From Crossaster papposus (taxonomy: Eukaryota; Echinodermata; Asteroidea; Velatida; Solasteridae): 64,000 nt of DNA. Under the pieces are notes generated by a model. That model had not been told where the DNA came from. It worked only from the letters and a program-made list of their open reading frames with translations, and searched no databases. The stretch covers positions 992,001 through 1,056,000 of the forward strand of contig JBAIAA010000751.1 in NCBI GenBank assembly GCA_037893245.1. The letters are read 5' to 3'. Position numbers and translations under genes: made by a program. Below, in pieces: positions 1 through 31,900 of the stretch; the stretch's first letter is position 1; every line of letters starts with the position of its first letter.

Positions 1-159
1 TAACAAGCCACAAGTCAGTTCCAATTAAAAACGTTGGTTCATTCAAATTAATTGTTTGTGAGGTAATTTGGCCAGATGACAGCTAGCTTCACTGCAAACA
101 GTTTGTGAATGGGTTCGGGGACCAATTTCATAAAACATGTACGCGCACAAATTTGCTTA

Positions 160-340: not shown

Positions 341-434
341 TGTTTTATGAAATTGACCCCATAATGGCAAGAACCTATCTTGCGCAACCCTCTACTCTAC
401 ATCGTGTCCCTAAGATCCTAGATCCACAACTGAC

Positions 435-6247: not shown

Positions 6248-6460
6248 ACAACTCGGATGCTTTCCTAATTCGGATGCATTCCTAATTCGGATGAGTTTTG
6301 CAAACTCGGATGCTTTTCTAATTCGGATGCTTTTTGTAACCTCGGATGCTTTTCTAATTCGGATGCTTGTATAACTCGGATGCTTGTTTAATTCGGATGC
6401 TTTTCTAGTTTGAATGCTTTTTGTAAACCCAACATATTCGCAAATCGGATGCTTTCCCAG
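6248..6460. repeat. degenerate 17-bp minisatellite
   Basis: Repeats of the unit AATTCGGATGCTTTTCT with variants (aactcggatgc, gatgcttgtt), about 12 units. It abuts the left end of the 6464-8312 inverted-repeat element. Confidence 0.8.
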
Positions 6461-6463
6461 ACA

Positions 6464-8312: not shown

Positions 8313-8436
8313 GGCACTAGGGTGGCCCTGATAGGACAGCACACATCGCAGATTCATGGAGTCGAGGCTGCACAAGCACAACGTACATCCGTAAACAGAA
8401 CTTCCGCATTCATGACCCTGTGACCAGCATGTACAT

Positions 8437-9310
8437 CAGGGGTGCGTTCCGCTTACGCGAACGTTGCCAACGTTGGCCAACGTTTGCGTTGTTCGCTTGA
8501 GTGGAACGCAATGTGCGCCAATTATGTTGGCGAACGTTAGCGAAAACGGCGAACGACATTCCGAGCTGTTCGCTGTTGGCCAGTGACGTATTTTAATGAT
8601 GGCGAAGCGGTTAGCAGACGGCAGGGTTCTTTTCACGGTTTTTATTTACGTTTTATACTTTTCGTTATAAACGGTGGATTGTTTTGAGCATTCACAGGGA
8701 CCTTTTAAAGAAAAATAATGAGTTGGACAAAAGCAGCGAACCAAACGATGTCACTTTCACTGGGCGCCGCCATTTTAAAAACGTAGTTTTTAAAATATCG
8801 TTCCACTTCAACTAACGCCAACTCAAAACGTTGGCGAACGTTCGCGCAAACAGTTCGCGTAAGTGGAACGCACCCCTGGGGTGCGTTCCACTTACGCGAA
8901 CTGTTTGCGCGAACGTTCGCCTAAGTTTTGAGTTTGCGTTAGTTAAAGTGGAACGATATTTTAAAAACTACGTTTTCAAAATGGCGGCGCCCATTGACAG
9001 ACACATCGTTTGCTTGGCTGCTTTTTGTCCAACTCATTATTTTTCTTTAAAAGATCCCTGTAACTTCTCAAAACAATCCACCATTTACAACGAAAAGTAT
9101 GAAACGTAAATCAAAACTGTGAAAAGAACACTGCCGTCTGCTAACCTCTTCGCCATCTTTAAACTACGTCACTGGCCAACAGCGAACAGCTCGGAATGTC
9201 GTTCGCCGTTTTCGCTAACGTTCGCCAACATAATTGGCGCACATTGCGTTCCACTCAAGCGAACAACGCAAACGTTGGCCAACGTTGGCAACGTTCGCGT
9301 AAGCGGAACG
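8437..9310. mobile_element. pair of inverted MITEs forming an 870-bp palindrome
   Basis: The first unit begins CAGGGGTGCGTTCC and ends GGAACGCACCCCTG (8437-8878). A second copy follows in opposite orientation and loses its end at 9310. The two arms of about 433 bp pair around position 8877 with only scattered mismatches. The CAGGGGTG terminus is hAT-like. The open frames in both arms are mirror images and non-coding. Confidence 0.8.
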
Positions 9311-9569
9311 GCGACAAGGCCGCCGCGCCACGCGCCACGCGCGCGCACGTGTACGGCCGGGGGGCCGGGGGATAGGGCTGCCGGGTGGCCGTTAGACTTG
9401 ATGACAAGTCGTTAGATAGTCGGGTTTAATCCGTGTATTTCAGTCGAAGTTTATCGGCACGGCTGGTTTAAGACTAGTAACGTGCCGAGTTGCGACATAT
9501 CTAACTTCGAACTCTGCAAATTGGGAACGAGGCAACCGCAACCTCCCCCCTGTATATACCGAGTGGACC

Positions 9570-10084
9570 CACTGACCTCAACACCTGGGCCCAATTTCTT
9601 GGCTCTGCTAACCACAGAATTCCGCGCTTACGGTCACCATTTTCCGCTAACTGCGCTAGCAGAAAATATTTGCGCTAACCCCGTAAGCACAGAATCCTTA
9701 GTTACGGGTTGTACGCATGCTCAGAGACCGAAATTCCTCGCTAACGCGTGAAATACGTTTACCGTAAGCACCGAATTTTCTGCTATAGTAAGCATGGATT
9801 CTTCGCTAACGGTAAGCAGAACCAAGAAATTGGGCCCAGGACGGATCATTGTCCATATTCTGCTGTGCTAACACTTGAAGTCGGCGCGAACTGGAAGTGC
9901 AACATGGCGTCACTGCTGTGAGCCAATGAAATGTCCAGTTGTAGAGGTCAGTGGATTTACCAACCAACTGAACTCTACACCTGGACATTTCATTGGCTCA
10001 CAGCAGTGACGCCATGTTGCACTTCTCTGCATGCCGACTTCAAAATGAAACAATGGATGATCTGTCCATGTATAGAGGTCAGTG
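9570..10084. mobile_element. composite hAT-type MITE, copy 2 (inverted, with nested insertion)
   Basis: This is the same element as 7952-8224 in reverse orientation. It is flanked by a perfect 8-bp duplication AGTGGACC (9562-9569 and 10085-10092) and split near its left end by the element at 9587-9840. Confidence 0.85.
9587..9840. mobile_element. small inverted-repeat element nested in a MITE
   Basis: The ends are GGGCCCAATTTCTTGG and its reverse complement, with an interior of GCTAAC/GTAAGC words. The uninterrupted target is seen in the sibling MITEs. The flanks CCTGG/CCAGG could be a 5-bp duplication with one change, but this is unresolved. A related fragment (rc TGCTAACCACAGAATT) lies at 17574-17592. 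Confidence 0.7.
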
Positions 10085-10132
10085 AGTGGACCGCTATTAC
10101 CGACTTGGCACCAAGTCTAGGTGGCCGTAGGC

Positions 10133-10222
10133 AAAGATCGTAGAGCGCCGCAAGGCGGCGCTTCATGCATGGAGTGGCCGTGGGGGCCGCCTACAGCGCT
10201 TTACGATCTTCTACGATCTTTG
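10133..10222. repeat. inverted repeat with AAAGATCGTAGA ends
   Basis: CAAAGATCGTAGAGCGCCGC at the left pairs with CTACGATCTTTGG at the right, with internal GCGGCGC and GGCCGC palindromes. The end sequence is shared with the hairpin at 1621-1665. Confidence 0.55.
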
Positions 10223-10471
10223 GTCTAGAGCCGCCCATTTATGATAATTACCCCTAACCATCCTAGAAACAAAAAACATTCGCCGGCGCCGGGGCCGCCG
10301 CGCTAGAATAGGCAGGCGCACCCAGTATAGAGCCCATAGAGCTATATTAAATTTAATATAGCTATGAATAGTGCAAAGCGCGAGAAGTCACGTGAGCGTC
10401 AATTCGAATGGTCTCGCGCTTACTCAAGTACGCGCGGGGAATTAATAATCGAACACGCCAACTATTCGTGA

Positions 10472-12277: not shown

Positions 12278-12320
12278 ATGGGCTGTCACGAGTCCAAGAA
12301 GCAAAAGCGGCGTGCTCGAG
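12278..12320 (+). CDS. exon 1: N-terminal lipidation-type peptide
   Basis: ATG at 12278 gives MGCHESKKQKRRAR before a gtaagt donor. Gly2, a small residue at position 6 (Ser) and Cys3 fit N-myristoylation with neighbouring palmitoylation, and the basic cluster fits membrane association. These are consensus-based inferences. Intron 1 (12321-13986) holds the second copy of the 4215-4390 dispersed repeat. Confidence 0.7.
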
Positions 12321-15300
12321 GTAAGTTTCTGACCCCGGCCCGTGGCAAATTTCACAGACGCACACTGAATCGTTCATTATTTTTACGTACTACAAGTTCT
12401 CACGAAAGAGCAAGGAATAAGATCCCATATTTTGTTGATATATTATTATTATTAAGATACAAAGACAATTGTGGCCCAAGGTATTGAGACTTGAGAGTCG
12501 TTTTAAAATCCTGTGCGAAGTACGAACGTAGGCCTAACTGTAGACCCATGAACGTGGCGATATTTACGGGTCTAAAGTAGGACGTACTGTAGTTTAATTA
12601 GATTGTTGATTTTATGTTGTTGCTAGCACGCAGCAGCAGCAGCAAGATCACGTGTTTCATATCGCAAATTTATGACCTCACAATTCGCCCATTATGGCAT
12701 TATGATTTCCCTTGTAAAAACATTATCATAAAGGGCAAGCCCGTCGATAGCAACATGCACAATCTCAAATTTTCCCCTTTGCGATAACGTTTTACATGTA
12801 CATGCAATGTTGTACAATATACTATGTATAAAATGGGTAGGGTTTAATAGTCCAAGTTTGTATGGAGTTAATCTAAGTTTTTGGTAGAATTGAGTGATAA
12901 AAATGTATTAGAATGAAATAAAATCATTATAGGCCACGGTGAGAATTATAGTTTTACACATTTGCGTCCATTAATTCTTCCAAATAGGCACTTGGGGAGA
13001 CAAATTAGCGTAAGTTTTTAGGTAATAAGGAGACAGTGGCACATAGGGAGACATTTCAGTGTCTCCATAAGTGTCTAGCTACCCTAAACAAATATATTTG
13101 GGAGTTATTTATGTCCTAGAACGACAGATTTTGGTCTAAAAAGCATAAATCTCGAAGATTTTAGAGAATATTTTTCATTACTTTATTTTAGGTTGTGAAT
13201 TGTTTGCATGGGTCCAGAAGTTGTTTCATGTTCATTTTAGGCTCAAATGTTTAACTTGTTTCTTGGAAAATACAGGTCCTGTGGAAAAAGGAAGTTCGCC
13301 GAATTATATTGTTCAGTGCATGCATGGGATTGAATGACAAAACAATACGATTTAAATGCTCAAACTTTTACTTCATTATATTCCCAAGTTTAATTTGTCT
13401 TTTAAAATAGCTATTCCTGGCTACACAACTGATTAAGACCTTACTTAGAACCTTATGTGGTAGGGGGTGTTTGCATGTTTGTTTTTATTTGAGTGAAAGG
13501 GTTAGCATTATTTCTACTATGAAAAGAACAATCTTAAGTTCTAGGTGCACTGTGAAGTGTAATAAAGCATTCTGAAATAAGCCACAGTTAAATGTAGTAT
13601 ACACCATTGGTAATCGCTTGAATTATCAGAAATGGGTGGATTTGATTGGCTGTATTTTTTAGCAAATATCGTTTAAATTATGCTGTTTGAAGTTTTACAA
13701 TCATGGATGCAAAACAAAAGCGAGAAAAACAGCGTTCGTTTTCAACCATCGGGCCGTTGTTTTTATTTAATATTTATGTTATTTTTAGCAGCAATTGCGA
13801 AAAATGTATAAAATTCAGCTTTTGAAACAATCACAGGATTCCCAGCACAATCATTTTTTGGGATGCCTAGAATCATCATTAACTTTCAAATAAGTAAGAT
13901 TTTTCCTAATAATTCGGAAGCAAAATGTTTTGATATCTGCAAATGATGTATCTTACATTTAACCTTTTAACACTTTGTTGTCTTAGAATCTGGCAATGAG
14001 CACCAGAAGCTTTCCAGAAGTGCTTTGAAGAAGCAAAAAAAAGTAAGTTAACAATGAGAAAATTTCAGGACAATTTGACTCGTATTTGCAGTCCAGCAAA
14101 TGTATACGTTTTGTAAATTCATGTTCAAAGATACTATTTTTGTAAATTCATGTTCAAAGATACTATTTTTGATAATCAAAATAAATAATGTATTTGCAGA
14201 GATGTAGTAGAGTCCCTTAAAATCACCATTAAAATTGGCCCCATGGTTCTCTTGTATCTCCCCCTATCCAGGCTAAGGCCAAGGTGGCCAAGGCCCTGGC
14301 CGAGACCAAGGCGAAGGGTGATGCTGAGCTGAGAGCTGTAGCTTTGGCCGTAGCTGGACTTGGTGAGTTGTAACATCTCTCAGGCTTTCCACTGAATGTT
14401 TTGTAGGGAGAGACCTCATCATGAAAATATATATCACTGACCAGGAACTATGTATTGCATACACAGAATAGTCTGCCACTTAGTGATGCCCCCACACACA
14501 CAAAAAAGAAGAAGACATTTAAAAATACAAGTGCTTAATAAATATTGTTTTATTTTGGGAGCTAAAAAGTAATTTGTATTGAATATACATTACAATTTTA
14601 AAAATGTTTTGTCAACTCTGCAGGAGAGGTCCAGCTGTCTGCCATTATCAGCAAGCAAACCCCTGGGCAAACCCCTGAGCAAACCCCTGAGCAAACCCCT
14701 GAGCAAAATACCACCACCCCTGAGCAATCCCTAACCAATGAGCATACTACCCCCGAGGAAATCCTGAAGGTCAGATATTACTTTTTTGGTCAAAGTACTT
14801 ACAGTTAAAAACCTTTGAAGACTTGATTTGCCAACAAATAAGATAAAATATTTATTGACAATGTTTACTGTTTACTTTTTGTTAAGTTTGAACCAACATC
14901 AAGCTAGATAACATCCTTTACCATATCAGGCCCGTAAGACACTTTTTTCAAAGGGGGGGCGTTTTCAACAACAACAAAAAAGTCAAAAAAAAAAAATTCC
15001 TTCGGAAACACGCTCATTCTCTTATTTTAATGTTCCATTATGGTGTCATAGTTTACCTTTCTTGTTGGTCGACGCACAGAAATACCGGAAGTAGTTTTTG
15101 ACATGATTCTACAACAATCTTAACAACCTTCCACCACCAGTCCGTTGACGAGTTGCAGCGTGTGATCACGTGACAAAACATGGTCACGTGTGTAAATAAG
15201 TGTACAAGGAAATGAGAAAACACCGTTTATTTCCCTTCTATCCTTTTAATTCCAAGTCGTGATTTGCATAAATAGACTAAGTAACACCGTTATGTCAGAT

Positions 15301-18300
15301 TATTGTTTCAAAACCATGTCTTAATCAGTACTAAAAATCCGGGTTAAAAATCAACTGTCGTAGCAACACTAAAGCACATGTCCGTTCGTGCATAATAAGT
15401 ATGCGCAGTAGTCTGTTTGCGCATTAATGACGTCAGCCTAGCCCTTAGTTGGAACTTTGAGGAACATTGTAGCAAATGCATAAATGGTGTTAGGAAGTTA
15501 CAATGGATCAAACTGTAGAGACTACTACAAACTGTAGTTGCTTAAGTCAATTAGGTTGTTTCTCTCTCTGCTTTGAGTACTCATGTACAACCACAGACTT
15601 GGCTTTAATAAGTCTATCACACATAAGACGTCACATGACATCGATATCCCACACACATTCGCACTCGGAAAACAACAAGTACAAATATCCTAACATGGAA
15701 ACCCCGGCCATCTCGTTTGTTTAAACAAATAAAAACCTGAACGCACATCAGCAAATCTGTAATTTGGAACACAAATAACCCGCAGACGGGATTATTCCAC
15801 CTACAATACATTATAACATTTGAAACAAACCAGCCACAACGTAGCCGCTATACTCATAAACAAAGGGCCGACCAAAACATATTTGTCCAAATACCGCACA
15901 CGGTTTGACCATATGTTTCTTTTTCAAACACCAAAAAAAACGTCTCTTTCCATCACCGCACACGGTTAGATGTTTTGATTTTTTCTTAAACAACTATCAA
16001 AAGATAGAAGAAAAAATTATCTAAAAGCCCATACCTCATTTAACTATTTTCCAAAATAGGAAAATATAAATAATGGCTTTTTCAAACAAAAAACAAACAC
16101 ACTTTTAGCCCAAATCCACAACATGAGTTCACAACCCATGCTCTGTTTTCCGCTCTATCGCATCCGAGCACCCATTGGATAATAAGATGACCAATCACAA
16201 CACGGTATCATCCACCGGGCCACGCCGTTTTGCACGCTACCCATCTTACGTACGCAAACTGTACATATATACCCCAGAGAATACCAACAAAACCAGGGAA
16301 ACATCCCTCCTAAAACATCTCATCAACCAAAACAAACCAAACGGTTTTTCTTGCCTACAATGTGCCCCACAATCCGAATATATTCATTATATTCATATAC
16401 AATTTCCGCATAGGAAAGCCATGGCAAGAAATAAACCGAAAAAAGGTAACAATGAGATCACTTAACCAACAAATATCAAACCTCTTCTCTGGCAAATGCG
16501 AACGCAAAAACGCCAATTCCAATCAGCAACCGAGCCATAAACAACCGGACCGTAACAATTAAAACACCAAGCAGTAAAAAAACACAGTTGTAACCCAACA
16601 TACTGCTCTCTATACAAGAGAAATAATACGGACCCAATATAAATAATATGGCTAAGTTCCAAATACCTGGAATTCACGTTCATTGATTGTAACCACACCA
16701 AACCCACACACCTTGCGAGTTAGACCCGATTCCTTACCATGGAATCACCTACCTGCAACTGACGAGTGTCATAACAGTAAAGACACGAAAGCACTGCTAT
16801 TGCTAACACAAGAGAATTTGCGATTACAATTCTCCCCTCGCACCCCAAATAAAATCACATTTGATTTATCTTATACCATACGGTCATCTAGTCTTTAGTG
16901 TTCGCCCACTCCATTTATTTCGGACATAACGGGCCTAGACTATTTCGTGCTTAAATTAAGCCATACAAGTCACAGAGAGAGGAATGTCACTGGATGGGAA
17001 AGCGCCATCATTCTCTTAACCAAAAACGCAATTTTTACCTTAAAAAAAAAAAAAAAAAAAAAAAAGATTTTCAAAGGGGGGGCGTTCGCAACCGTCGCCC
17101 CCCCCCATCTGACGGGCCTGCATATGACCAAACAAATTTTGCAAAAATATAGGGCATTTTAAGAGGCTGATAGATAACATCCCAAATATTGAGATTATAT
17201 TACCTTTTATTCACAGGAAATGAAGAAAGAGACAAAGGAGGAGATGAAGTCCCCCAACGGAATGATGACTACTGATTTCTCTGTCGCAGCTGCCATTACT
17301 GATGCAGTTGCCAAGGTGATCAATGACGATGCCGTGATAAAGAACGAGGACCTGAAGGCCATTCTGGGGCTGACCCAGGTGAATAACTTACCCACCCCCC
17401 CCCCCCCCCCTCCCCCCCTCCCCCAAACAATAATAATAATAAATAAATAAATAAATATAACAAAATTAACTTAAATAAAATCTCACTATTTTCTTGATTT
17501 ATGTGCCTACATGATTTAAAAGCACATACATTTTCTGCTTGTGCTGTTAATAGAGAATTGTGATTCTTGGTGCAGAATTCTGTGGTTAGCAAGTGTACAA
17601 ACTCGGACATATTGTCCAGGTTCCAGTATAAGGGTGCTATAATGATACTTGGTATAAGTACAGCCAGGTTTCACTTTACCTCACACAAGTATATGATTTT
17701 CTCATTATTTTTAATTTCTTATTAACGAGCCTTGATTTCCTTTATTTGACAGTCTACCCTGGCCACTGAGCGTCCTACCAGCTCCGCATCCATTGAACCT
17801 AGACTGATCGTTGTCAATGAGGCTGACATCTGCATTGACAACACCGTGGACAAACCACCTACTGAAGTGAGTAGATGACTTTATTGTAATATTTAACTTC
17901 AGTAGTTTGCTATGAATAGAAGTAAGTAGTGATAGTGATGGTGATAGTGGTACAAAGGGATGGGATGACGATAATGGTGATGAAAATGATGAAGGCAACA
18001 ATGATGAAGGTTTATTTGAGGACCAGTGGATAACTAATGGTTGATCTGTGATGTAGGTTGTACCTACACACTTATACTGAAGTCAAAACATCTCAAGTCA
18101 AAGCATAATTTTAAACTCCTTGCTGTACAATATATGGGTGTATTGGTTCTTAGCGAAACAATCTTCCTTTTTAAGTATAGGCTATACCCCTGAATTAACC
18201 TATCACAGTAGAACTGTGTCAACGCATGCAGCTTGTGAAATATCAATGCAGAATTTGCAAAAATCTGAGACAAAATTACCGGACAAAATTCCCTAAGGTT

Positions 18301-21300
18301 AATTAACAGTTATAATAATGATGATTGGTTAGTTTGAATGAAGTAAAGCTGATAAACAGTTGGTGCTTGAACTGCTGACTTTTCAAATGTGATCTATGCA
18401 GGCACTGATCAAGGAGCCTACCATCACTGACAAGGATATACAAGCTACTGTTGCCTTGATGAGTGAGAACAAAGATGTAGAAATCAAGGTAGAGAATGAC
18501 GAGGATACTGATCTGGTTTGAGATTTGTTCTATAAAAAACCTTTTCCTGAAATAGTTGTACTAATCACAGAACAGTCCTGTGAGAGTTTCGGATCACTTT
18601 TTATACTAAACGCCACACATCAGCATATGTTCCTCTTCATTAGACCAGTGACATCATTTTGTAATAAAACAATATTCGACCTCATCTACAACCAAAACTA
18701 CAACCAAAACTGCCGGTTGACAAAGACTCATTCAAGGGAAATAAATCTCAGGTTTTTTGCTGGACTGAACGCGACAGTTCCGGATCACGCATTGCCTGTC
18801 ATTCAAACAGCGCACATTGACCAATAATATTACGAGTTTTGGTCAGGTAACTTAGCAACAGTTGCTACAGGCATGGTTCGTGACCACGCCCACTAGCTCA
18901 GCTATAGGGCAGGCTGCATACATTATACTATGGTTATACGTTTCTGCATGCATCACATCAAAGGTGATCCGCAACTGTCACATCGCAGAAAAAAATACGG
19001 CAATTCAGTTAATTCACATTTCCAATTTCTTTTTAATCTGTGATACTTGAGATGTCCTCCCTTGCAAGAAAACCAAATATATAGTTTACTATATCGTTTA
19101 CTAAATTTCTAAATTTTCTAAAATTACTAAATTTCTTTTCCGAATATTGCAAAATAATAGACGTTGAAATTTGTGGGGGAAAAAAATCAGGTTATACACT
19201 TGAATTAAATCTAAGTTAATCAAATTGATCCAGAACTGTCGCACCGACTGTACACATTAGAAATCTGTGAAACACAAGCCAGTAAATATGATGTGACATA
19301 GAATTCATTTTGATTTCACACCGTTTTATTTTATCATCGCATACAATGTTTAATTTGTGTAACTGTTATTATGATTAGACACTAGTCCAGGATTGGATGC
19401 TTTTTCACTCTTTTAAACCAGGACTCTTCCAGCAGCCTGAAAGTGGAGGCTGATAACCTGGTGAAGGCCGTCTTTGCCAGTCTGGACAAAGATGAGATGA
19501 ATGCACCTCAGCCAGAAGGGCTAGAGTCTGCAGCGGATGAGGTAAGTCAACATCAAAGTAGACAAGCATCAATTACATCAATTGCATTATAACTTCATTG
19601 GCACATATGTTTACTAGGCTTACTAAGATACTAGGCTGGGCATCCACTACTGGCCGATATTCCTTCTTATTCCTCCATGGTATAACTGTACCGGCCAGCC
19701 TGTAGCTCGGCCGGTGGGTTTTTTCCTCTTGGTACCGGCCGAGACTCTGACTGAGGCACTTACACGCTTTGGAGATTCTTTGTGTTCAGGCTCCATTATA
19801 GCAGATTCCTATCTAGGACCAAACAATGAGGCGTGTTCATAATTCGCTTTCTCCTCCACTGGTCCACAAAAGGCCTAAATACATTTATTTAATACTTATA
19901 ATGTAATGTGTGCAGTGCTTCATGACAACCAATTAATTTGTGAAAATGCCATGTAAAGAAATTTAAAGATGCAGTCAGGAAGCTTGTTTACGCCATGCTT
20001 ACACAATATACAATAATTCTGCTTAAAACCCTTTTGTTGAACTCTGGAGGCTAACATGCTGTGTTTTGCTTGAGAGACTCTGATTGTGCTCTAATGTGTC
20101 GACGAGATATACTGCAGTAAGACCAGCCTTGTACCAGCCGAGAGGGGCAAAGGGGCTGGCCAATTAAAAAAAAGGCCGGTAATGGATGCCGGGCCTAACT
20201 TTAAGATTTTAAATTGTTGTAATTTTGTTATATATCATGATTAGACAGTCCATGATTTATACTAAACGCCACACATCAGCATATGTTCCTCTTCATTAGA
20301 CCAGTGACATCATTTTGTAATAAAACAATATTCGACCTCATCTACAACCAAAACTACAACCAAAACTGCCGGTTGACAAAGACTCATTCAAGGGAAATAA
20401 ATCTCAGGTTTTTTGCTGGACTGAACGCGACAGTTCCGGATCACGCATTGCCTGTCATTCAAACAGCGCACATTGACCAATAATATTACGAGTTTTGGTC
20501 AGGTAACTTAGCAACAGTTGCTACAGGCATGGTTCGTGACCACGCCCACTAGCTCAGCTATAGGGCAGGCTGCATACATTATACTATGGTTATACGTTTC
20601 TGCATGCATCACATCAAAGGTGATCCGCAACTGTCACATCGCAGAAAAAAATACGGCAATTCAGTTAATTCACATTTCCAATTTCTTTTTAATCTGTGAT
20701 ACTTGAGATGTCCTCCCTTGCAAGAAAACCAAATATATAGTTTACTATATCGTTTACTAAATTTCTAAATTTTCTAAAATTACTAAATTTCTTTTCCGAA
20801 TATTGCAAAATAATAGACGTTGAAATTTGTGGGGGAAAAAAATCAGGTTATACACTTGAATTAAATCTAAGTTAATCAAATTGATCCAGAACTGTCGCAC
20901 CGACTGTACACATTAGAAATCTGTGAAACACAAGCCAGTAAATATGATGTGACATAGAATTCATTTTGATTTCACACCGTTTTATTTTATCATCGCATAC
21001 AATGTTTAATTTGTGTAACTGTTATTATGATTAGACACTAGTCCAGGATTGGATGCTTTTTCACTCTTTTAAACCAGGACTCTTCCAGCAGCCTGAAAGT
21101 GGAGGCTGATAACCTGGTGAAGGCCGTCTTTGCCAGTCTGGACAAAGATGAGATGAATGCACCTCAGCCAGAAGGGCTAGAGTCTGCAGCGGATGAGGTA
21201 AGTCAACATCAAAGTAGACAAGCATCAATTACATCAATTGCATTATAACTTCATTGGCACATATGTTTACTAGGCTTACTAAGATACTAGGCTGGGCATC

Positions 21301-24300
21301 CACTACTGGCCGATATTCCTTCTTATTCCTCCATGGTATAACTGTACCGGCCAGCCTGTAGCTCGGCCGGTGGGTTTTTTCCTCTTGGTACCGGCCGAGA
21401 CTCTGACTGAGGCACTTACACGCTTTGGAGATTCTTTGTGTTCAGGCTCCATTATAGCAGATTCCTATCTAGGACCAAACAATGAGGCGTGTTCATAATT
21501 CGCTTTCTCCTCCACTGGTCCACAAAAGGCCTAAATACATTTATTTAATACTTATAATGTAATGTGTGCAGTGCTTCATGACAACCAATTAATTTGTGAA
21601 AATGCCATGTAAAGAAATTTAAAGATGCAGTCAGGAAGCTTGTTTACGCCATGCTTACACAATATACAATAATTCTGCTTAAAACCCTTTTGTTGAACTC
21701 TGGAGGCTAACATGCTGTGTTTTGCTTGAGAGACTCTGATTGTGCTCTAATGTGTCGACGAGATATACTGCAGTAAGACCAGCCTTGTACCAGCCGAGAG
21801 GGGCAAAGGGGCTGGCCAATTAAAAAAAAGGCCGGTAATGGATGCCGGGCCTAACTTTAAGATTTTAAATTGTTGTAATTTTGTTATATATCATGATTAG
21901 ACAGTCCATGATTGGATGCTTTTTCTTTCTTTTGTATATCAGGACTCTTCTAGCAGCCTGGAAATGGAGGCTGCTACCCTGGTAAAGGCCGTCTTTGCCA
22001 GTCTAGAAAAAGATGAGATGAAAGCACCTCAGCCAGAAGGGCTAGAGTCTGCAGCTGATGATGAGGTAAAGTCAACATCAAAGTAGACAAGCATCAATTG
22101 CATCATAACTTTATTGACATATGTTCACCAAAGATACTAGGCTGGGCATCCACTGCCGGCCTGTAACTGACGTACCGGCCAGCCTGTAGTTCGGCCGGTA
22201 AGTTTTATTATCTTTATACCGATCGAGGTACTGGCCGAGACTCTGACTGAGGCGGCTTACCCATTTTGGAGATCCTTTGCAAAGGGGCTGACGGTAAAGA
22301 AACTGGTCGGTAATGGGTGCTGGGCCTAACTTTAAGATGTACAATTTCAATTTCTTATTAACGAGCCTTGATTTCCTTTATTTGACAGTCTACCCTGGCC
22401 ACTGAGCGTCCTACCAGCTCTGCATCCATTGAACCTAGACTGATCGTTGTCAATGAGGCTGACATCTGCATTGACAACACCGTGGACAAACCACCTACTG
22501 AAGTGAGTAGATGACTTTATTGTAATATTTAACTTCAGTAGTTTGCTATGAATGGAAGTGAGTAGTGATAGTGATGGTGATAGTGGTACAAAGGGATGGG
22601 ATGGTGATAATGGTGATAAAAATGATGAAGACAACAGACAAGTTTATTTGAGGACCAGTGGATAACTAATGGTTGATCTGTGATGTAGGTTGTACCTACA
22701 CACTTATACTGAAGTCAAAACATCTCAAGTCAAAGCATAATGGGTGCTGGGCCTAACTTTAAGATGTACAATTTTTGTAATGTTATATATCATGATTAGA
22801 CAGTCCATGATTGGATGCTTTTTCTTTCTTTTGTATTATCAGGACTCTTCCAGCAGCCTGCAAGTGGAGGCTGCTAACCTGGTGAAGGCCGTCTTTGCCA
22901 GTCTGCACAAAGATGAGATGAATGCACCTCAGCCAGAAGGGCTAGAGTCTGCAGCGGATGAGGTAAGTCAACATCAAAGTAGACAAGCATCAATTACATC
23001 AATTGCATTATAACTTCATTGGCACATATGTTTACTAGGCTTACTAAGATACTAGGCTGGGCATCCACTACTGGCCGATATTCCTTCTTATTCCTCCATG
23101 GTATAACTGTACCGGCCAGCCTGTAGCTCGGCCGGTGGGTTTTTTCCTCTTGGTACCGGCCGAGACTCTGACTGAGGCACTTACACGCTTTGGAGATTCT
23201 TTGTGTTCAGGCTCCATTATAGCAGATTCCTATCTAGGACCAAACAAGGAGGCGTGTTCATAATTCGCTTTCTCCTCCACTGGTCCACAAAAGGCCTAAA
23301 TACATTTATTTAATACTTATAATGTAATGTGTGCAGTGCTTCATGACAACCAATTAATTTGTGAAAATGCCATGTAAAGAAATTTAAAGATGCAGTCAGG
23401 AAGCTTGTTTACGCCATGCTTACACAATATACAATAATTCTGCTTAAAACCCTTTTGTTGAACTCTGGAGGCTAACATGCTGTGTTTTGCTTGAGAGACT
23501 CTGATTGTGCTCTAATGTGTCGACGAGATATACTGCAGTAAGACCAGCCTTGTACCAGTCGAGAGGGGCAAAGGGGCTGGCCAATTAAAAAAAAGGCCGG
23601 TAATGGATGCCGGGCCTAACTTTAAGATTTTAAATTGTTGTAATTTTGTTATATATCATGATTAGACAGTCCATGATTGGATGCTTTTTCTTTCTTTTGT
23701 ATATCAGGACTCTTCTAGCAGCCTGGAAATGGAGGCTGCTACCCTGGTAAAGGCCGTCTTTGCCAGTGTAGAAAAAGATGAGATGAAAGCACCTCAGCCA
23801 GAAGGGCTAGAGTCTGCAGCTGATGATGAGGTAAAGTCAACATCAAAGTAGACAAGCATCAATTGCATCATAACTTTATTGACATATGTTCACCAAAGAT
23901 ACTAGGCTGGGCATCCACTGCCGGCCTGTAACTGATGTACCGGCCAGCCTGTAGTTCGGCCGGTAAGTTTTATTATCTTTATACCGGTCGAGGTACTGGC
24001 CGAGACTCTGACTGAGGCGGCTTACCCATTTTGGAGATCCTTTGCAAAGGGGCTGACGGTAAAGAAACTGGTCGGTAATGGGTGCTGGGCCTAACTTTAA
24101 GATGTACAATTTCAATTTCTTATTAACGAGCCTTGATTTCCTTTATTTGACAGTCTACCCTGGCCACTGAGCGTCCTACCAGCTCTGCATCCATTGAACC
24201 TAGACTGATCATTGTCAATGAGGCTGACATCTGCATTGACAACACCGTGGACAAACCACCTACTGAAGTGAGTAGATGACTTTATTGTAATATTTAACTT

Positions 24301-27300
24301 CAGTAGTTTGCTATGAATAGAAGTAAGTAGTGATAGTGATGGTGATAGTGGTACAAAGGGATGGGATGACGATAATGGTGATGAAAATGATGAAGACAAC
24401 AGACAAGTTTATTTGAGGACCAGTGGATAACTAATGGTTGATCTGTGATGTAGGTTGTACCTACACACTTATACTGAAGTCAAAACATCTCAAGTCAAAG
24501 CATAATGGGTGCTGGGCCTAACTTTAAGATGTACAATTTTTGTAATGTTATATATCATGATTAGACAGTCCATGATTGGATGCTTTTTCTTTCTTTTGTA
24601 TTATCAGGACTCTTCCAGCAGCCTGCAAGTGGAGGCTGCTAACCTGGTGAAGGCCGTCTTTGCCAGTCTGGACAAAGATGAGATGAAAGCACCTCAGCCA
24701 GAAGGGCTAGAGTCTGCAGCTGATGATGAGGTAAGTCAACATCAAGCAGGCCGTGCAGACAAGCATCACCTTCATTAACACATGCTCACCAATTATACTT
24801 ACTTAGCTCTAGACAGCGCTTTAGGACAATGGCAGGAATTAAAAAAAACAGAACGTAGAACACTAAATAACTTCAAACTTGGCACTGCATATTCTAGACA
24901 GTTTAGCGTAAGTTTTACGGCATTAATAATAACATTATAATAATATTAATAATAATAATAATAGTAACTTAAGATTTATATAGTGCCCAACTGCTTATAC
25001 ATGAAATAAATCATGCTCCCAGGTGCTTATTATGGAAGTTAAGAAAACCTATGATTAAAATACAAACTATTAACCAGAACATTATTAAAATTTAAACATA
25101 CAAAATATCAACTAAAACCCAAATTTATATTTAATAAAAATTTAAATTCACTGAGAAAAATGCCATAACAATACACGAATATCTCACAATACTAAAAACC
25201 CTTGTATGTAAAAACAGTTTGAGAAACTTTAAAAACAGCCATAGCCTATAGACATGTGAGCAATTAGGTTAAAAAAGCTTGCTAAAAAAAAACCGATTTA
25301 AACCCGATTTAAATTTCCTGAGAGTAAGTAAGTAGTTTACTTCATATATTTGAATAACAATTTATATCATTTTTCTAAGATTTATATATTCATAATATTG
25401 ATTACTTAAAGTGATAGCTATGGACTGTCTGCATAAACATGAAATGAAGCTTCATAAACACTCAGAAAAGTTCATACATTCTTTTGGTACATAGCGTTAT
25501 GGGGACAACCCATAGGGTTTGTGTGTAAACTGAAATCTCTCTAATCTCAAACTCAAAACACTCAAAAATTTTAAAATTATCAGGATGACCCTAATTTGTC
25601 CTCTTCTTCATTTTCTTTCATTATACCCTAACCCGATTTTACCTTGTTCTACCTTTACTGAACACCCAACGCGCTATGGGGACTCGAAAATGTCCCCACT
25701 ACTCGATCTGTCTTTTCCAAACAAAAGAGCCTGTCCCCCAAACGCGGTGAGTGCCTACCCTGCATCTGAAACACACCAATGATGGGCTATATGCCTCATA
25801 CAGTGGCAATGGTCATGTGCCTGTGTGCACAGAATTCTCAAAAGTCGGACATGACTTGTCTTTGATGGTTATAGATTACTGCAGCAGAGCAGGCAGCCAT
25901 TTTGGAGCAGGAGGCTGCTTATCTTGTGGATGCTGTCTTTGACAGCTTGGATAGAGAAGATGAAGAGGAGGCAGAGACTACACCACCAGTCATTGATGAC
26001 ATGGTGGGTTCAATTCTATGTTTGGATATTATTACAATGTTTATCGAAATTCTAGAACGAAATGAATAACAGCTATATGAATAAAGTTGTGAAACAAAGT
26101 TGTATGCGTTAACAACAAAAAACAAATTATGCAAAATTAAGTTCATTACTAATACAATGAAAGTCAGATCTGAACTTATGTCACATGCTATTATACTGAC
26201 AGCTTGACTTACGATTATTGACTTATTTCACATGTGACAGCTGACTAATTGGGTGATTGACTTGATTATAACTCTGAGACACTGAGATGATTGAACAACT
26301 CAATATTTGATACTTTTTTAACACTATAAACTCAGTTTTGTTCAGAGAGATTATGTGAAGAAAAAAATCGAACCCAAGACCTCCTGCTTTTTAGCATGTT
26401 GTACATCATTGTTTAAATATGTCAACATTGAAATGAAATATTTGGTATTTATACCTATAGCAGCCTATGGGTGTGTCAGTAGAAGCATCTTCTAATCTGG
26501 TGGAGGAGGCGGCCCGAATCGTAAATGCTGTCCTAGCCCGTGCTACTGCAGACTTCCAGTCTGAAGGGCAGATCAATGCTTCAAACATAGAGACATTTGA
26601 CATGGTAAGTTATAAATACAAAGAAATTTGTCAGATTCTTACAATTCTTTCCAAAATTGGTAATACTCAAAAAGCATGCAGTTTACATCACTAATCTTAT
26701 TTATGCATATTTTCCTAGACCGGCAGTTATTACTGCTAAGAGTTAATAGCGCCCTCTGGCCTCCTACCCATAGTGCCCCTTATTATGTATTTCTCGTGCG
26801 CATCCTCTCTTCTCTTAGCGGCAGGTCGGGTAGGACGTGTTTATAATACGCTGATATTGTCTTTTCTGCTACTGTTATCGCTTAAGAGTAGTATTTAATT
26901 AAAGTTGAGATAAAGTTCAGTTGTATAGTGGTGTTTTTGTCCGACTCAGTTTATTTATTAAGAAATAAAATGTTTTCGCGCATATTTCGCCAATAATGAA
27001 CGTCGTGCGACATTTATGCAGCATTCGTACATATGTCGCGCGATTATCTTGCGAAAGGCTTGCGTTTGCTTCTTTGGCAAAGTCACCTGTTCTCAAGAAG
27101 TACGCGAACAGTTCGTAAATCGCTCGGGAAATGATCGGAACGAACTTCGCTCCTTTCGCGAGACATGCGCGATACATTCTCCAAACTGTCGGAATCTGTT
27201 TGGGGTTTTACAAAGATTTTGCGAAACATCACGCACGTCATGAGTAGGTCGTGCGCATATGACGAAGCTTTTAAGACATTTTCGAGATCAAATCACGAGC

Positions 27301-30300
27301 AAATCACAACCCGGAATGCTAGAAGCAAATTTTTTGAAATCCCCGCCGAACTAAAAATGACTCCCGCGAACAATTGACGACGCTTCTGAACCCCCGCGCA
27401 TGTTTGGCGAACTTTTGAACTTAGAATACCAATGCTGGACTTTGCCATTTATTCGGCATTCGCATCCTTCTCAAATCGTTCCCGTGCCCCGTAAAAAACC
27501 CATGCACCCTATAGTGCTTGAGAGAAAAAGGACGTGCACGAATCATACATGCTGCAGGGCACAATTGGTAGGAGGCCAGAGGGCGGGTCTAAATTGTAAT
27601 TGTAACCTATAACCAACTACCTATGTTTGCAATTTTGATGATCCCCCTCTTCTATATGGGAACGGATTTCTGTGAATGATAATTTTCCTCCTCGTAAATT
27701 TTAGCAGCCTCATGATGATTTCCAGGATGAATCCCAAAAATACAACCTGGACCAACAGGCTGCAGAAATGGTTGATGCCGTGCTAGCCAGCATTGCCACA
27801 GAGGACAAGGTCCCAACTCTGTCAAAGACAACAGACACTGATGCAGTAAGTTAAGACACAATTAAGTTACTAGCTGTACTTTTTAAAATTTGATCAAACC
27901 TGAAAGTTCAGCAACCCTCAATTGTGTCTTTTTATCAACAGACTTCCAACACTACATCAGTCGACACAGCTGAGTTGACACGTATCATCTTGAATGGGTT
28001 GAAGAAATCAAGCATCAACCTTGTTCGCCTGAACTCTGAGATGTCCACTCAGACTTGTGAGATGTCCATTCAAACTGATGATGTAAGTCAAACCAACATA
28101 AATAAAGTCACTATACAGCTAAAATACTTTGACATTAGGGAACTATACTTGAAAACTAAACCTACAGATACAACTTTTGGGATAACTTTTTTCTTGACAT
28201 TTTTTTTCAGATCAAAAGTGAGGAGGCAAGTCCATCAAAAAAGCCTTCAGCTGTATCTAAGATTAAAGCAGCCTTCAAGTCGGCATCCAAGAAAAGCCGA
28301 ACGGCTCTTCTGGGCAAAAAGGATAAACAGAACGTGGATACAAAATCCAGTGGGAGTGGCAAAGACATCAAACCTGACAAGGCTTCTGGCAAAGGCAAGA
28401 CCAAGTTGGCTGATAGTAAGAAGCCTGCCCGCGATGTGAAGAAGTCTACAAGCCGTCGCAAGAAGTCTCCCACTGTTGCTCGTAAGAAGTCTCCCACTGT
28501 TGCTCGTAAGAAGTCATCAACTGAGCTAAAAGCCCGCAATGCATCAAGCAGGATGCTAAAACTCAAAGAGGCTGCAAATAACACATCTTTAGGTTCCACA
28601 GCCTCCAGCTCCAAGGGCAAAGAGATCTCCACTAAGAAGTCAGAGGCTTCCAAACATTCTCAGAAGTCTGCTACTGCAGCAAGAAATACTACCAAGAGCA
28701 AACCTAAACCTGCCGAGAAGTTGAAGGCTTCTAAGAGCTCTTCCAGTCAACGCAAAGGTGACAAACACAAATCACCAAACAACTCTGCAAGTGCCCATAC
28801 AGCAAGCAACAAGGAGTGTACCGTATCTGCCAACACTTTGCCAGAGGAAAAGCAGCAACCCAAAACAGCAAGTGTTGCTAGTAATGCAACAAAATCATGT
28901 GACAAGTCAACTATGAAATCCAAGTCATCTCGCAACGTGAAGCCAGGCCGAGTGAGCTTCCAAGCACCACAGGACGTTGCCTCATCAGCCCATCACAAAG
29001 TAATGCAGACCTCCACTGTGGAAAGTAAGGACGGTAACATTGCACTCACATCCACTGACCATCCAGGCACTTCCAAGCTGAGTGCTAAGCGCCAGAAGCA
29101 TTTTGGGAAAGGTAAAATGTCCATCACGTGCGATGTCACTCCCCGCAGAGCCAACTCTGCACGCCAGGCCCATGGTCAAAAGACATCCTTGGCCATGCTT
29201 GCAGAAGCCAGACCCAGTACAGTGTTGGCTACTCAGATGGAATCTGCCAGCAAAATGGATCATTTATCTCTTCCGGAATCTGACAGCAGTGCCATGGGTG
29301 ACAACACTAAGGTGATCAGGGAAAACAGTGTCACACATCCACTATCTTTGGAAGACCAACCATTGGATGGACTACAGCAGGATGCTATTACTGCAGTGAA
29401 TGATAACAGTCAAGAACATCAGCAGCAGGTTCAGGTGCAAATTCAGCTGTTGCGTGGCAATAATACCAACACTGTTAACCATTCAACAGAGGATTCTGAA
29501 AGTACCAGTGAAAAAAATCCTCTCAGTAGAGCTTCAAAGATTCCAACTCCGACAAAGATGGCTTCCAACAAGCCATCAAGTGATACTCTGTGCGGCCCTG
29601 GTCACCTTATCAGAGATGCGGCAGGTGCTCTGGAGAAGCAGCGACAGATAAAGAGTAGAGCGACCACTCCCTCCACCACTCCCGGTCATCTTACACCAGT
29701 ACCAAGCGAGTCCCGGCAGAGCACTTCAAAGATCCCAAACAAGAACTACATCGTGGATTCTAGAACTCCTGGTGAGAGGAGTCCTCTCCATCAACAAGCC
29801 TCAAAGATTCCAACCCCGACAAAGATGGCTTACAACAAGCCATCAAGTGATACTTTGTGCGGCCCTGGTCACCTTATCAGAGATGCGGCAGGTGCTCTGG
29901 AGAAGCAGCGACAGATAAAGAGTAGAGCGACCACCCCCTCCACCACTCCCAGTTATCTTACACCAGTACCAAGCGAGTCCCGGCAGAGCACTTCAAAGAT
30001 CCCAAACAAGAACTACATCGTGGATTCTAGAACTCCTGGTGAGAGGAGTCCTCTCCATCAACGAGCCTCAAAGATTCCAACTCCGACAAAGATGGCTTAC
30101 AACAAGCCATCAAGTGATAATCTGTGCCGTCCTGGTCACCTTATCAGAGATGGGGCAGATGCTCTGGAGAAGCAGCGACAGATAAAGAGTAGAGCGACCA
30201 CCCCCTCCACCACTCCCAGTCATCTTACACCAGTACCAAGCGAGTCCCGGCAGAGCACTTCAAAGATCCCAAACAAGAACTACATCGTGGATTCTAGAAC

Positions 30301-31369
30301 TCCTGGTGAGAGGAGTCCTCTCCATCAACAAGCCTCAAAGATTCCAACCCCGACAAAGATGGCTTACAACAAGCCATCAAGTGATACTTTGTGCGGCCCT
30401 GGTCACCTTATCAGAGATGCGGCAGGTGCTCTGGAGAAGCAGCGACAGATAAAGAGTAGAGCGACCACCCCCTCCACCACTCCCAGTCATCTTACACCAG
30501 TACCAAGCGAGTCCCGGCAGAGCACTTCAAAGATCCCAAACAAGAACTACATCGTGGATTCTAGAACTCCTGGTGAGAGGAGTCCTCTCCATCAACGAGC
30601 CTCAAAGATTCCAACTCCGACAAAGATGGCTTACAACAAGCCATCAAGTGATAATCTGTGCCGTCCTGGTCACCTTATCAGAGATGGGGCAGATGCTCTG
30701 GAGAAGCAGCGACAGATAAAGAGTAGAGCGACCACCCCCTCCACCACTCCCGGTCATCTTACACCAGTACCAAGCGAGTCCCGGCAGAGCACTTCAAAGA
30801 TCCCAAACAAGATAAACATCGTGGATTCTAGAACTTCTGGTGAGAGGAGTCCTCTCCATCAACGAGCCTCAAAGATTCCAACTCCGACAAAGATGGCTTA
30901 CAACAAGCCACCAAGTGATACTCTGTGCGGCCCTGGTCACCTTATCAGAGATGCGGCAGATGCTCTGGAGAAGCAGCGACAGATAAAGAGTAGAGCGACC
31001 ACCCCCTCCACCACTCCCATTCATCTTACACCTGTACCCAGCGAGTCCCGTAACACTCCAGAGATCCCAAACAAGAACAACATCATGGTATCTGGAACTA
31101 CTGTTGAGAGAAGTCCTCTCCGGCGAGCCTCAAAGATTCCAACTCCGACAAAGATGGCTTCCAACAAGTCATCTAGTGATACTCTCTGGAGCCCTGGTCA
31201 CCTTATCAGAGATGCGGCAGGTGCTCTGGAGAAGCAGCGACGAATAAAGAGTGTGGCAACCACCCCCTCCACCACTCCAGGTCATCTTACACCTGTTTGC
31301 GGTGCTGGGGAGTCTCCCCGTCAGGAGAATGCTGAGGTGCAGCTTGGCTGCACTCAGCGCCAACATTAG
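12278..31369 (+). CDS. candidate PKA-anchoring/microtubule-tip scaffold protein (about 20 exons, about 1,790 codons)
   Basis: Exons (+): 12278-12320, 13987-14042, 14272-14362, 14624-14769, 17217-17378, 17753-17866, 18402-18515 (end uncertain), 19422-19541, 21078-21197, 21943-22065, 22389-22502, 22843-22962, 23708-23830, 24154-24267, 24608-24730, 25893-26003, 26461-26604, 27705-27845, 27942-28082, 28211-31369. All junctions join in frame; from exon 5 on every junction is phase 0. The product starts MGCHESKKQKRRAR (myristoylation/palmitoylation-like plus basic). It continues through Ala- and TPEQ-rich exons into repeated amphipathic helices matching the PKA RII-anchoring consensus. Then come two TQT/IQT motifs, a Lys/Ser-rich basic region with three RKKS sites, and seven SKIP-bearing repeats. 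What is seen: exons, frames, motifs. What is inferred: an AKAP-like, EB1-binding cytoskeletal scaffold. No named orthologue is recognised. Exon 16's acceptor and exon 7's donor are the weakest points. Confidence 0.75.
13596..13765 (+). repeat. dispersed repeat shared with 4215-4390
   Basis: Same word order as the copy at 4215-4390, with scattered differences. It is located in intron 1 of the large gene. Confidence 0.6.
13987..14769 (+). CDS. exons 2-4 of the scaffold gene
   Basis: Exon 2 (13987-14042) encodes a short basic peptide ending ALKKQKK. Exon 3 (14272-14362) encodes an Ala/Lys-rich helix (AKAKVAKALAETKAKGDAEL). Exon 4 (14624-14769) encodes four near-perfect Q-T-P-G/E units followed by TTTPEQ. 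Phases are 1-0-1-0 and all splice sites are canonical. A 29-bp exact tandem duplication sits in the intron at about 14109-14168. Confidence 0.75.
14927..17120. mobile_element. 2.2 kb inverted-repeat element in intron 4
   Basis: CAGGCCCGT at the left pairs with ACGGGCCTG at the right. The flanks carry CATAT on both sides (14922-14926 and 17121-17125), a possible 5-bp target duplication. Subterminal CAAAGGGGGGGCGTT words occur near both ends in the same orientation, and a long A-run is at about 17042-17065. No transposase frame was recognised. Confidence 0.55.
17217..18515 (+). CDS. exons 5-7 of the scaffold gene
   Basis: Exon 5 (17217-17378, 54 codons) carries AAAITDAVAKVINDDAV, a helix that nearly fits the RII consensus. 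Exon 6 (17753-17866, 38 codons, type B) encodes TERPTSSASIEPRLIVV and is the model for exons 11 and 14. Exon 7 (18402-18515 if the gtttga donor is used, or to 18488 with gtagag) encodes ITDKDIQATVALMSENKDVE plus an acidic tail. All are phase 0. A C-rich run follows exon 5 at 17394-17424. Confidence 0.7.
18600..21911 (+). repeat. exact-looking 1656-bp tandem duplication containing exons 8 and 9
   Basis: 18600-20255 is repeated as 20256-21911. Exon 8 (19422-19541) and exon 9 (21078-21197), their introns and the upstream 780-bp segment match at every place I compared. Either the duplication is very recent or one copy is an assembly artefact. Confidence 0.85.
19422..24730 (+). CDS. tandem exon array (exons 8-15) encoding repeated RII-type helices
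   Basis: Six type-A exons (8, 9, 10, 12, 13, 15; 120 or 123 bp) encode DSSSSL + VEADNLVKAVFASLDKD-like helices + an acidic tail ending ESAADE or ESAADDE. Two type-B exons (11, 14; 114 bp) repeat exon 6. The order is A A A B A A B A. Helix residues fit Axx(L)(V)xx(V)(F)xx(L), the published PKA RII-anchoring pattern. All are phase 0, so gain or loss of units keeps the frame. Introns after type-A exons share CCGGCC-rich segments. The binding role is inferred. Confidence 0.75.
21078..24607 (+). repeat. 1765-bp tandem unit (A-A-B exons), two copies
   Basis: Exons 9/10/11 and 12/13/14 are offset by exactly 1765 bp each (21078 to 22843, 21943 to 23708, 22389 to 24154), and exon 15 starts a third unit at 24608. 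Copies differ by scattered bases, for example CTA/GTA in exons 10 and 13 and GTT/ATT in exons 11 and 14, so this step is older than the 1656-bp one. Confidence 0.85.
24950..24965. repeat. (AAT)n microsatellite in intron 15
   Basis: A short AAT run. The remainder of intron 15 (24731-25892) is AT-rich with no recognised feature. Confidence 0.6.
25893..28082 (+). CDS. exons 16-19 of the scaffold gene
   Basis: Exon 16 (25893-26003) encodes EAAYLVDAVFDSLDRED, exon 17 (26461-26604) EEAARIVNAVLARATADF, and exon 18 (27705-27845) QAAEMVDAVLASIATED. The first two are strict RII-pattern matches and the third is close (Met at one core position). Exon 19 (27942-28082) encodes AELTRIILNGLKK and then STQTCEMSIQTDD, a doubled TQT/IQT motif of the kind bound by dynein light chain LC8. 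Exons 17 and 18 both open at tandem AGCAG acceptors. Exon 16's acceptor sits in a cagcagagcag tract and is uncertain. Confidence 0.7.
26749..27586. mobile_element. inverted-repeat element in intron 17
   Basis: GCGCCCTCTGGCCTCCTACC at the left pairs with GGTAGGAGGCCAGAGGGCG at the right, giving imperfect TIRs of about 30 bp. The right part (27360-27500) is homologous to the sequence interrupted at 54121-54155 / 56499-56620. It is non-coding. Confidence 0.65.
28211..31369 (+). CDS. last exon of the scaffold gene: basic region plus seven 89-residue SxIP repeats
   Basis: The acceptor ttttttttcag|ATC opens 1,052 codons to the TAG at 31367. The first 440 codons are Lys/Ser-rich with three RKKS sites and read as disordered. 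Seven repeats start at 29531, 29798, 30065, 30332, 30599, 30866 and 31127 (267-bp period, 261 for the sixth). Each has ASKIPTPTK, a PGHLIRDAAGALEKQRQIK helix-like stretch, TTPSTTP and, in the first five, TSKIPNK. That makes 12 S-K-I-P motifs with nearby basic residues and prolines, the form used by EB1-binding plus-end tracking proteins. Units 2+3 are nearly duplicated as 4+5. The function is inferred. Confidence 0.85.
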   Translation: MKSEEASPSKKPSAVSKIKAAFKSASKKSRTALLGKKDKQNVDTKSSGSGKDIKPDKASGKGKTKLADSKKPARDVKKSTSRRKKSPTVARKKSPTVARKKSSTELKARNASSRMLKLKEAANNTSLGSTASSSKGKEISTKKSEASKHSQKSATAARNTTKSKPKPAEKLKASKSSSSQRKGDKHKSPNNSASAHTASNKECTVSANTLPEEKQQPKTASVASNATKSCDKSTMKSKSSRNVKPGRVSFQAPQDVASSAHHKVMQTSTVESKDGNIALTSTDHPGTSKLSAKRQKHFGKGKMSITCDVTPRRANSARQAHGQKTSLAMLAEARPSTVLATQMESASKMDHLSLPESDSSAMGDNTKVIRENSVTHPLSLEDQPLDGLQQDAITAVNDNSQEHQQQVQVQIQLLRGNNTNTVNHSTEDSESTSEKNPLSRASKIPTPTKMASNKPSSDTLCGPGHLIRDAAGALEKQRQIKSRATTPSTTPGHLTPVPSESRQSTSKIPNKNYIVDSRTPGERSPLHQQASKIPTPTKMAYNKPSSDTLCGPGHLIRDAAGALEKQRQIKSRATTPSTTPSYLTPVPSESRQSTSKIPNKNYIVDSRTPGERSPLHQRASKIPTPTKMAYNKPSSDNLCRPGHLIRDGADALEKQRQIKSRATTPSTTPSHLTPVPSESRQSTSKIPNKNYIVDSRTPGERSPLHQQASKIPTPTKMAYNKPSSDTLCGPGHLIRDAAGALEKQRQIKSRATTPSTTPSHLTPVPSESRQSTSKIPNKNYIVDSRTPGERSPLHQRASKIPTPTKMAYNKPSSDNLCRPGHLIRDGADALEKQRQIKSRATTPSTTPGHLTPVPSESRQSTSKIPNKINIVDSRTSGERSPLHQRASKIPTPTKMAYNKPPSDTLCGPGHLIRDAADALEKQRQIKSRATTPSTTPIHLTPVPSESRNTPEIPNKNNIMVSGTTVERSPLRRASKIPTPTKMASNKSSSDTLWSPGHLIRDAAGALEKQRRIKSVATTPSTTPGHLTPVCGAGESPRQENAEVQLGCTQRQH

Positions 31370-31894: not shown

Positions 31895-31900
31895 AATAAA
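31895..31900 (+). terminator. polyadenylation signal of the scaffold gene
   Basis: AATAAA about 526 bp after the stop, followed by GT-rich sequence (TGTTTGTACCATGTG). 31370-31894 would be the 3' UTR. 31901-32360 shows nothing recognisable. Confidence 0.55.

Follow-up and report, generated by a model that had tools for sequence, protein, structure and literature searches.

What kind of protein is encoded by the gene that spans positions 12278-31369 of this 64,000-nt stretch of Crossaster papposus DNA (the window, by which we mean the whole stretch analysed)? A preliminary description had read it as a hub linking the membrane, protein kinase A (PKA) and growing microtubule ends. We favour, tentatively and with a probability of about 0.45, a membrane-tethered A-kinase anchoring protein (AKAP) that would also be a microtubule plus-end tracking protein (+TIP), that is, a scaffold of variable valency without recognised folded domains. 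Of the proposed hub, the lipidation-type start, the helices of exons 16-18 and the SKIPTPTK repeats stood up by sequence, whereas the helix of the type-A exons did not.

The exon chain and its copies

The gene consists of 20 exons on the forward strand (+), with GT-AG borders and matching phases, which join into one open frame of 5397 nt (1798 aa). The frame runs from the ATG at 12278, which begins MGCHESKKQKRRAR, to a TAG stop at 31367-31369, and a candidate poly(A) signal, a sequence match to AATAAA, lies at 31895-31900 (+). A mitochondrial contig encodes COX1 that reads with Asn at AAA and Ile at ATA at conserved places under NCBI table 9, a code of echinoderms and also of flatworms, in keeping with an animal that is most likely an echinoderm. 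The genome, of 1.02 Gb in 1841 contigs, holds six further copies on contigs C751 and C296 (seven with the window copy), which we name by contig position: P740a (751-765 kb), P740b (777-789 kb), P856 and P955 on C751, and Q198 and Q255 on C296. The order of exons 1-6 and 16-20 is unchanged in the copies, where these exons are present. According to our gene models, four of the seven copies are intact (window, P740a, Q198 and Q255). Exon 1 of P740b is not in the fetched stretch, nor are exons 18-20 of P955, in which one type-A exon (see below) also has no donor; P856 has a frameshifted exon 20, whose repeats are open in another frame with 8 SKIP motifs.

Between the two groups of copies (4 pairs), the identity of exons 1-6 and 16-19 is 97.86-98.03% and that of the comparable introns 87.9-89.9%, a comparison that leaves out introns of at least 4000 nt, of very different length or not more than 70% alike; within the groups (2 pairs counted), exons are 98.5 and 99.0% identical and introns 97.9 and 94.5%. 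Since exons are about 98% and introns 88-90% identical between the groups, the protein is, as judged from these alignments, under purifying selection. With the window copy set against the other copies, the pooled ratio of nonsynonymous to synonymous substitution rates (dN/dS) was 0.34 for exons 1-4, 0.18 for exon 5 and 0.40 for exon 20 (its first 430 aligned codons, with the frameshifted P856 included), all of these counts comparing one copy with related copies and hence being non-independent; exons 6 and 19 had no amino-acid changes across the copies compared. The recurrence of the exon chain, together with the far better conservation of exons than of introns, indicates that the gene is real and that its in-phase chain is a single gene, as the preliminary description had assumed. 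Two other possibilities were rejected: that the exons belong to separate genes, because the same chain was found again in other copies, and that the product is an ordinary domain protein, because Pfam yielded nothing related above the curated cut-offs.

Some parts of the chain are to be read with care. Exon 7 (18402-18515) has a weak-looking donor, CTG|gtttga, in the window, compared with gtat in P856, P955 and Q255, and it was not found in the intact copies P740a and Q198; on these grounds, it may be skipped in the transcript. Exons 8 (19422-19541) and 9 (21078-21197), which are identical in sequence, lie inside tandem units: bases 18600-20257 recur 1656 nt downstream with no mismatch over 1658 nt, so that this pair of exons either arose by duplication very recently or is an artefact of assembly.

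Because its 5' flank matches window positions 1-10359 in pieces, at 94-99.8% identity, Q198 may be an allele of the window copy; against this, the region on its 3' side (C296:187001-197000) gave no match of at least 400 nt to the 3' flank of the window, which matches the flanks of Q255 and of the P740 copies. On a larger scale, C751:935-1056 kb and C296:187-292 kb share inverted matches in pieces (87-99.8%), the pattern to be expected of alternative haplotypes or of a segmental duplication. A piece of about 92 nt from the beginning of exon 20 also occurs alone, at C751:748434-748524 and C296:281490-281580, in the orientation opposite to that of the nearby gene copy.

Helices, SxIP tail and N-terminus

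The preliminary description had assigned the strict RII-anchoring pattern, [AVLISE]xx[AVLIF][AVLI]xx[AVLI][AVLIF]xx[AVLISE], to exons 8, 9, 10, 12, 13, 15, 16 and 17, with near-fits in exons 5 and 18. All eight assignments were confirmed; exon 18 (27705-27845; QQAAEMVDAVLASI) misses the pattern by a Met alone, and exon 5 (17217-17378) proved to be a full strict fit, VAAAITDAVAKV. A single strict match, ELRAVALAVAGL, in the Ala/Lys-rich exon 3 (14272-14362) brings the total to 10 of the 20 exons, with exons 3 and 5 counted. The eight helices are all present but are not eight independent cases, since six of them are tandem copies of one exon, here called type A: exons 8 and 9, exon 10 (21943-22065), exon 12 (22843-22962), exon 13 (23708-23830) and exon 15 (24608-24730). 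Among them stand the type-B exons 11 (22389-22502) and 14 (24154-24267), copies of exon 6 (17753-17866). Of 21 type-A exons, 20 keep the segment LVKAVFAS unchanged, and the broken exon of P955, which lies outside the column count, keeps LVKAVFA. Exons 8, 10, 15, 16, 17 and 18 have L, A, V, A and V in common at fixed places and share the same phase, from which we infer that the helix exons descend from one ancestral exon.

In residues 1-746, the strict pattern occurs 12 times, two of these matches being second registers in exons 16 and 17, compared with a mean of 2.3 in shuffled sequences, none of which reached 12 in 2000 trials. With redundant exons collapsed, 7 matches remain against 1.15 in shuffles, a number reached in 4 of 5000; shuffling removes helix periodicity, so that this excess speaks for helices with such spacing and not for RII binding. 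AlphaFold2, given an alignment of six sequences, predicts exon 17 as one helix over residues 7-43, with a predicted local distance difference test (pLDDT) score of 88-89 at residues 11-30 and a mean of 71.

Ten helices were scored against three from AKAPs with confirmed PDB chains (30 comparisons, 1000 shuffles each). Exon 16 (25875-26003; EAAYLVDAVFDSL), exon 17 (26461-26604; NLVEEAARIVNAVLARATADF) and exon 18 scored 30, 31 and 30 against the Ht31 helix of AKAP13 (2drn), with P values of 0.003, 0.001 and 0.003 and at one offset. These scores fall inside the range of AKAP helices compared with one another (17-32), and the best of 489 background 20-mers from residues 166-240 and 747-1180 reached 24 against Ht31. 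Exons 17 and 19 gave P values of 0.028 and 0.031 against AKAP7; these two values near 0.03 could be due to chance, which is hardly so for the three Ht31 values. Exon 5 scored 8-13 against the AKAP helices. Exons 16-18 are Ht31-like beyond chance and, by this resemblance, would be the most credible PKA docks, whereas the type-A helix, put forward earlier as the main AKAP case, scores no better against the three solved structures than shuffled versions of itself do.

Exon 20 (28211-31369) encodes a basic Ser/Lys-rich stretch followed by SxIP repeats. The 12 SxIP motifs reported before were recovered as [ST]xIP, all of them in exon 20, whose shuffles hold 0.92 on average; they stem from a tandem repeat at 29529-31293 (267 nt or 89 aa, 6.6 copies) that holds SKIPTPTK and SKIPNKN. 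They lie in a basic, Ser/Pro-rich stretch, as described before, and a MACF-like context surrounds the SKIPTPTK half of the repeat but not the SKIPNKN half. In the five copies in which repeat units were read (window, P740a, P740b, Q198 and Q255, with P856 left out), 21 units begin with SKIPTPTK (18), SKIPTPTN (2) or SKIPTLTK (1), and SKIP is kept in all 21; units were located by a pattern just 3' of the motif, which would overlook any unit that lacks the stretch concerned. As their second motif, nine units have SKIPNK(N/I) and six have PEIP; six others went unmatched by the pattern used, five of them being last units without a second motif, while one, in P740b, has PEIP by eye. RRASKIP, which we take to be a PKA consensus whose Ser is the Ser of the SxIP motif, occurs in the final unit of all five copies and in two other units, of P740a and P740b; the other units have QRAS, SRAS, QQAS or QRTS at this place.

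A candidate EB1-ligand peptide is RRASKIPTPTKM. For MACF and EB1, the reported dissociation constants (KD) are about 10 mM for SKIP, about 2 mM for SKIPTP, 34 uM for the 9-mer SKIPTPQRK and 3.5 uM for the 11-mer KPSKIPTPQRK (PMC12695022). Since SKIPTP is followed by TK in the window, like the measured MACF ligand SKIPTPQRK, it is a fair guess that the SKIPTPTK repeats would bind EB1 at a micromolar KD, multiplied by the repeats. A search of the SKIP repeat against the PDB by sequence gave no match.

At the other end of the protein, the MGC and basic start is present as described, encoded from the ATG by exon 1 (12278-12320). The N-terminus, with Gly2, Cys3, Ser6 and a polybasic run, reads MGCHESKK(Q/R)KRRAR in the six of the seven copies in which exon 1 is present, and its basic character carries on in exon 2 (13987-14042). 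Dual acylation calls for an MG start, a small residue at position 6, and Cys and basic residues nearby; by its sequence, this N-terminus fits N-myristoylation plus palmitoylation. Exon 4 (14624-14769) consists of short TPEQ repeats and varies in length among the copies. The TQT and IQT motifs noted in exon 19 (27942-28082) are there, as STQT and SIQT; these two short LC8-type matches lie 7 residues apart in all six copies having exon 19, which also encodes an amphipathic segment and the protein sequence of which is identical in these six.

The proposed scaffold and its alternatives

According to the reading that we favour, dual acylation and the polybasic start would hold the protein at the membrane, and the run of helices, one per exon, would dock PKA regulatory dimers, exons 16-18 being the best candidates by virtue of their likeness to Ht31. 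The C-terminal repeats would bind the EB1 homology domain via SKIPTPTK, given its likeness to a measured ligand, and would bring growing microtubule ends to the place at the membrane where PKA is anchored. The number of docks would change as exons and repeats are duplicated in tandem, and anchored PKA might, as a feedback, phosphorylate the Ser of RRASKIP and release EB1. Both partners have counterparts in the genome, which contains a docking exon of type II PKA with a classical RII start, the best match to the docking and dimerization (D/D) fold, and an EB1 homology exon. We consider it improbable that the full extension of this scheme holds, in which a membrane AKAP would be a direct +TIP gating itself via RRASKIP, cAMP would control the capture of microtubules at the membrane, and dock numbers would be set by duplication and perhaps vary between alleles (6 type-A exons and 12 SxIP motifs in the window copy versus 1 and 6 in Q198, with its collinear 5' flank). 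If the scaffold is as proposed, one protein would serve PKA and EB1 at the membrane, and its copies would be a natural variant series for testing scaffold valency; in the known cases considered here, PKA is joined to EB1 via a multi-protein complex (AKAP9 with myomegalin).

Several results weigh against this scaffold. The three type-A forms score 10-17 against the AKAP helices, no better than shuffles (P 0.14-0.51), Ht31 is the only one of the three AKAP helices that was matched well, and exons 16-18 are mutually related and thus not three independent cases. The Pfam scan of the protein gave only matches below cut-off, none of them related, and no AKAP family at E values up to 10, a search in which very short families may drop out at the HMMER filters. 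A profile search did not return AKAP peptides: a five-helix profile searched against 177,635 PDB sequences recovered HU and TetR, which are bacterial proteins, and FI20010p1 (E 0.27-1.9), and sequence searches of the PDB gave one unrelated designed chain for exon 17 and nothing for exon 16. The hydrophobic moment over 21 residues, compared with shuffles, was below 0.05 in P for only one of the eight window helices, exon 17 (0.028); P was 0.14-0.16 for exons 16, 18 and 5 and 0.37-0.38 for type A, and the sequence that we take to be Ht31 gave 0.008 in the same test. The best 14-mer moments were 0.42-0.63, compared with 0.55-0.69 in three AKAPs. Pooled dN/dS reached 1.04 in exon 17 and 0.69 in exon 18, and exon 16 had four amino-acid changes and no silent one; the changes in exons 16-18 fall mostly outside the helix core, which in exon 17 has two only (V to I and T to I), the remainder being in the flanks. 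Finally, exon 20 holds no more PKA-like sites than expected (7 versus 7.3), and SKIPTP alone has a millimolar KD for EB1 (PMC12695022).

One alternative is that the protein is an EB1-binding +TIP whose helices bind something other than PKA, for instance each other or a coiled-coil partner, their RII likeness being a by-product of short amphipathic helices. In its favour, the evidence from the SxIP motifs is stronger than that from the RII pattern, the scores of the type-A helix do not mark it as AKAP-like and the profile matches are ordinary helices. Against it, an Ht31-like core in one shared register has been retained in each of exons 16-18 despite the differences between them. We regard this alternative as unlikely, though deserving attention.

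The helices might also dock other dimers of the D/D fold (ropporin, SPA17 or other R2D2 proteins), in which case the protein would be a ciliary or sperm scaffold and not a PKA anchor. SPA17 is reported to bind AKAP18 weakly by itself and at nanomolar affinity when paired with ROPN1L in a heterodimer, and proteins of this kind are found throughout Metazoa (PMC8339350); weaker D/D-like matches were found in this genome on contigs C302 and C408. We nevertheless hold this explanation to be quite improbable, given that the best D/D match is the classical RII start, that those on C302 and C408 are weak, with E values of 0.04-0.41, and that EB1 motifs and acylation are no special pointer to cilia.

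The number of putative docks differs among near-identical copies, from 1 to 6 type-A exons and from 2 to 12 SxIP motifs. There are six type-A exons in the window copy, three each in P740a, P740b, P856 and P955 (one of those in P955 being broken), two in Q255 and one in Q198; SxIP motifs number 12 in the window copy, 5 in P740a, 5 in P740b (exon 20), 6 in Q198 and 2 in Q255. The count of eight helices and 12 SxIP motifs given in the preliminary description is therefore true of the window copy, whereas the other copies have 1-3 type-A exons and, in those with exon 20 read in frame, 2-6 SxIP motifs. This variation, the partial or frameshifted state of three of the seven copies and the lack of a Pfam family over its cut-off would suit a fast-changing, lineage-specific protein with motifs from repeat expansion and no scaffold role, which we find the least probable of the explanations, since the exons were conserved while the introns diverged by 10-12%, the exon 19 protein is identical in six copies and all 21 units retain SKIP.

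Known systems and neighbouring features

Each part of the favoured membrane scaffold is known from other proteins. smAKAP binds RI and has one helix and no known SxIP motif, and no smAKAP family was matched in the Pfam scan of the candidate protein. smAKAP (AKAP19), a small AKAP of the membrane, is myristoylated and palmitoylated at its N-terminus, carries an R-binding helix and has its anchoring subject to feedback by PKA phosphorylation (PMC13025221); the candidate is like it in its acylation-type start and AKAP-like helices. The Ht31 helix of AKAP13 (AKAP-Lbc) is the one that exons 16-18 resemble, in one register. AKAP13 itself is a large Rho exchange factor, and it differs from the candidate, in which Pfam matched no Rho exchange domain. 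AKAP9 is not known to have an acylated MGC start, nor MAP2 an acylated start; MAP2 is a lattice binder and is not known to bind tips in the SxIP manner, and MACF is a giant spectraplakin.

AKAP9 (AKAP450/CG-NAP) connects type II PKA to both EB1 and microtubules (PMC13025221, PMC6861388) and differs from the candidate in acting with an EB1-binding myomegalin complex at the Golgi and centrosome (PMC6861388), while MAP2, which is microtubule-associated and RII-binding, was the first AKAP described (PMC13025221). The SxIP peptide of MACF is like that of the candidate in having SKIPTP and then a basic residue (PMC12695022), although in the candidate, unlike MACF, SKIPTP is set in a tandem repeat. 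The preliminary description knew of no described protein with this combination. Each part is known, but searches of an open-access library on AKAPs together with EB1 or SxIP, on RII signature helices and multiple RII helices, and on invertebrate and lipidated AKAPs listed no protein that has direct SxIP repeats along with an MGC start and several AKAP-like helices in a row.

Other features were observed beside the gene. An exon-like frame at 418-798 on the reverse strand (-) matches Pfam Cobalamin_bind (E 4.1e-14), which points to a gene of the cobalamin-carrier kind next to the candidate scaffold; a second frame, at 1151-1504 (-), gave no Pfam match. A retroelement at 47457-49349 (-) has a reverse transcriptase match (RVT_1, E 1.5e-23) as well as weak matches of the RNase H type, and Pfam matched nothing in the nearby frames at 46486-46842 and 49693-50532. 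An open frame of 816 aa at 59338-61788 (+) consists, by eye, of tandem C2H2-type zinc-finger units. Elsewhere in the assembly, contig C8 (more than 5.2 Mb) has two COX1-like matches, at about 2.87 and 5.21 Mb and with 54 and 57% identity, one of them in a 682-aa frame, and this could be a bacterial contig.

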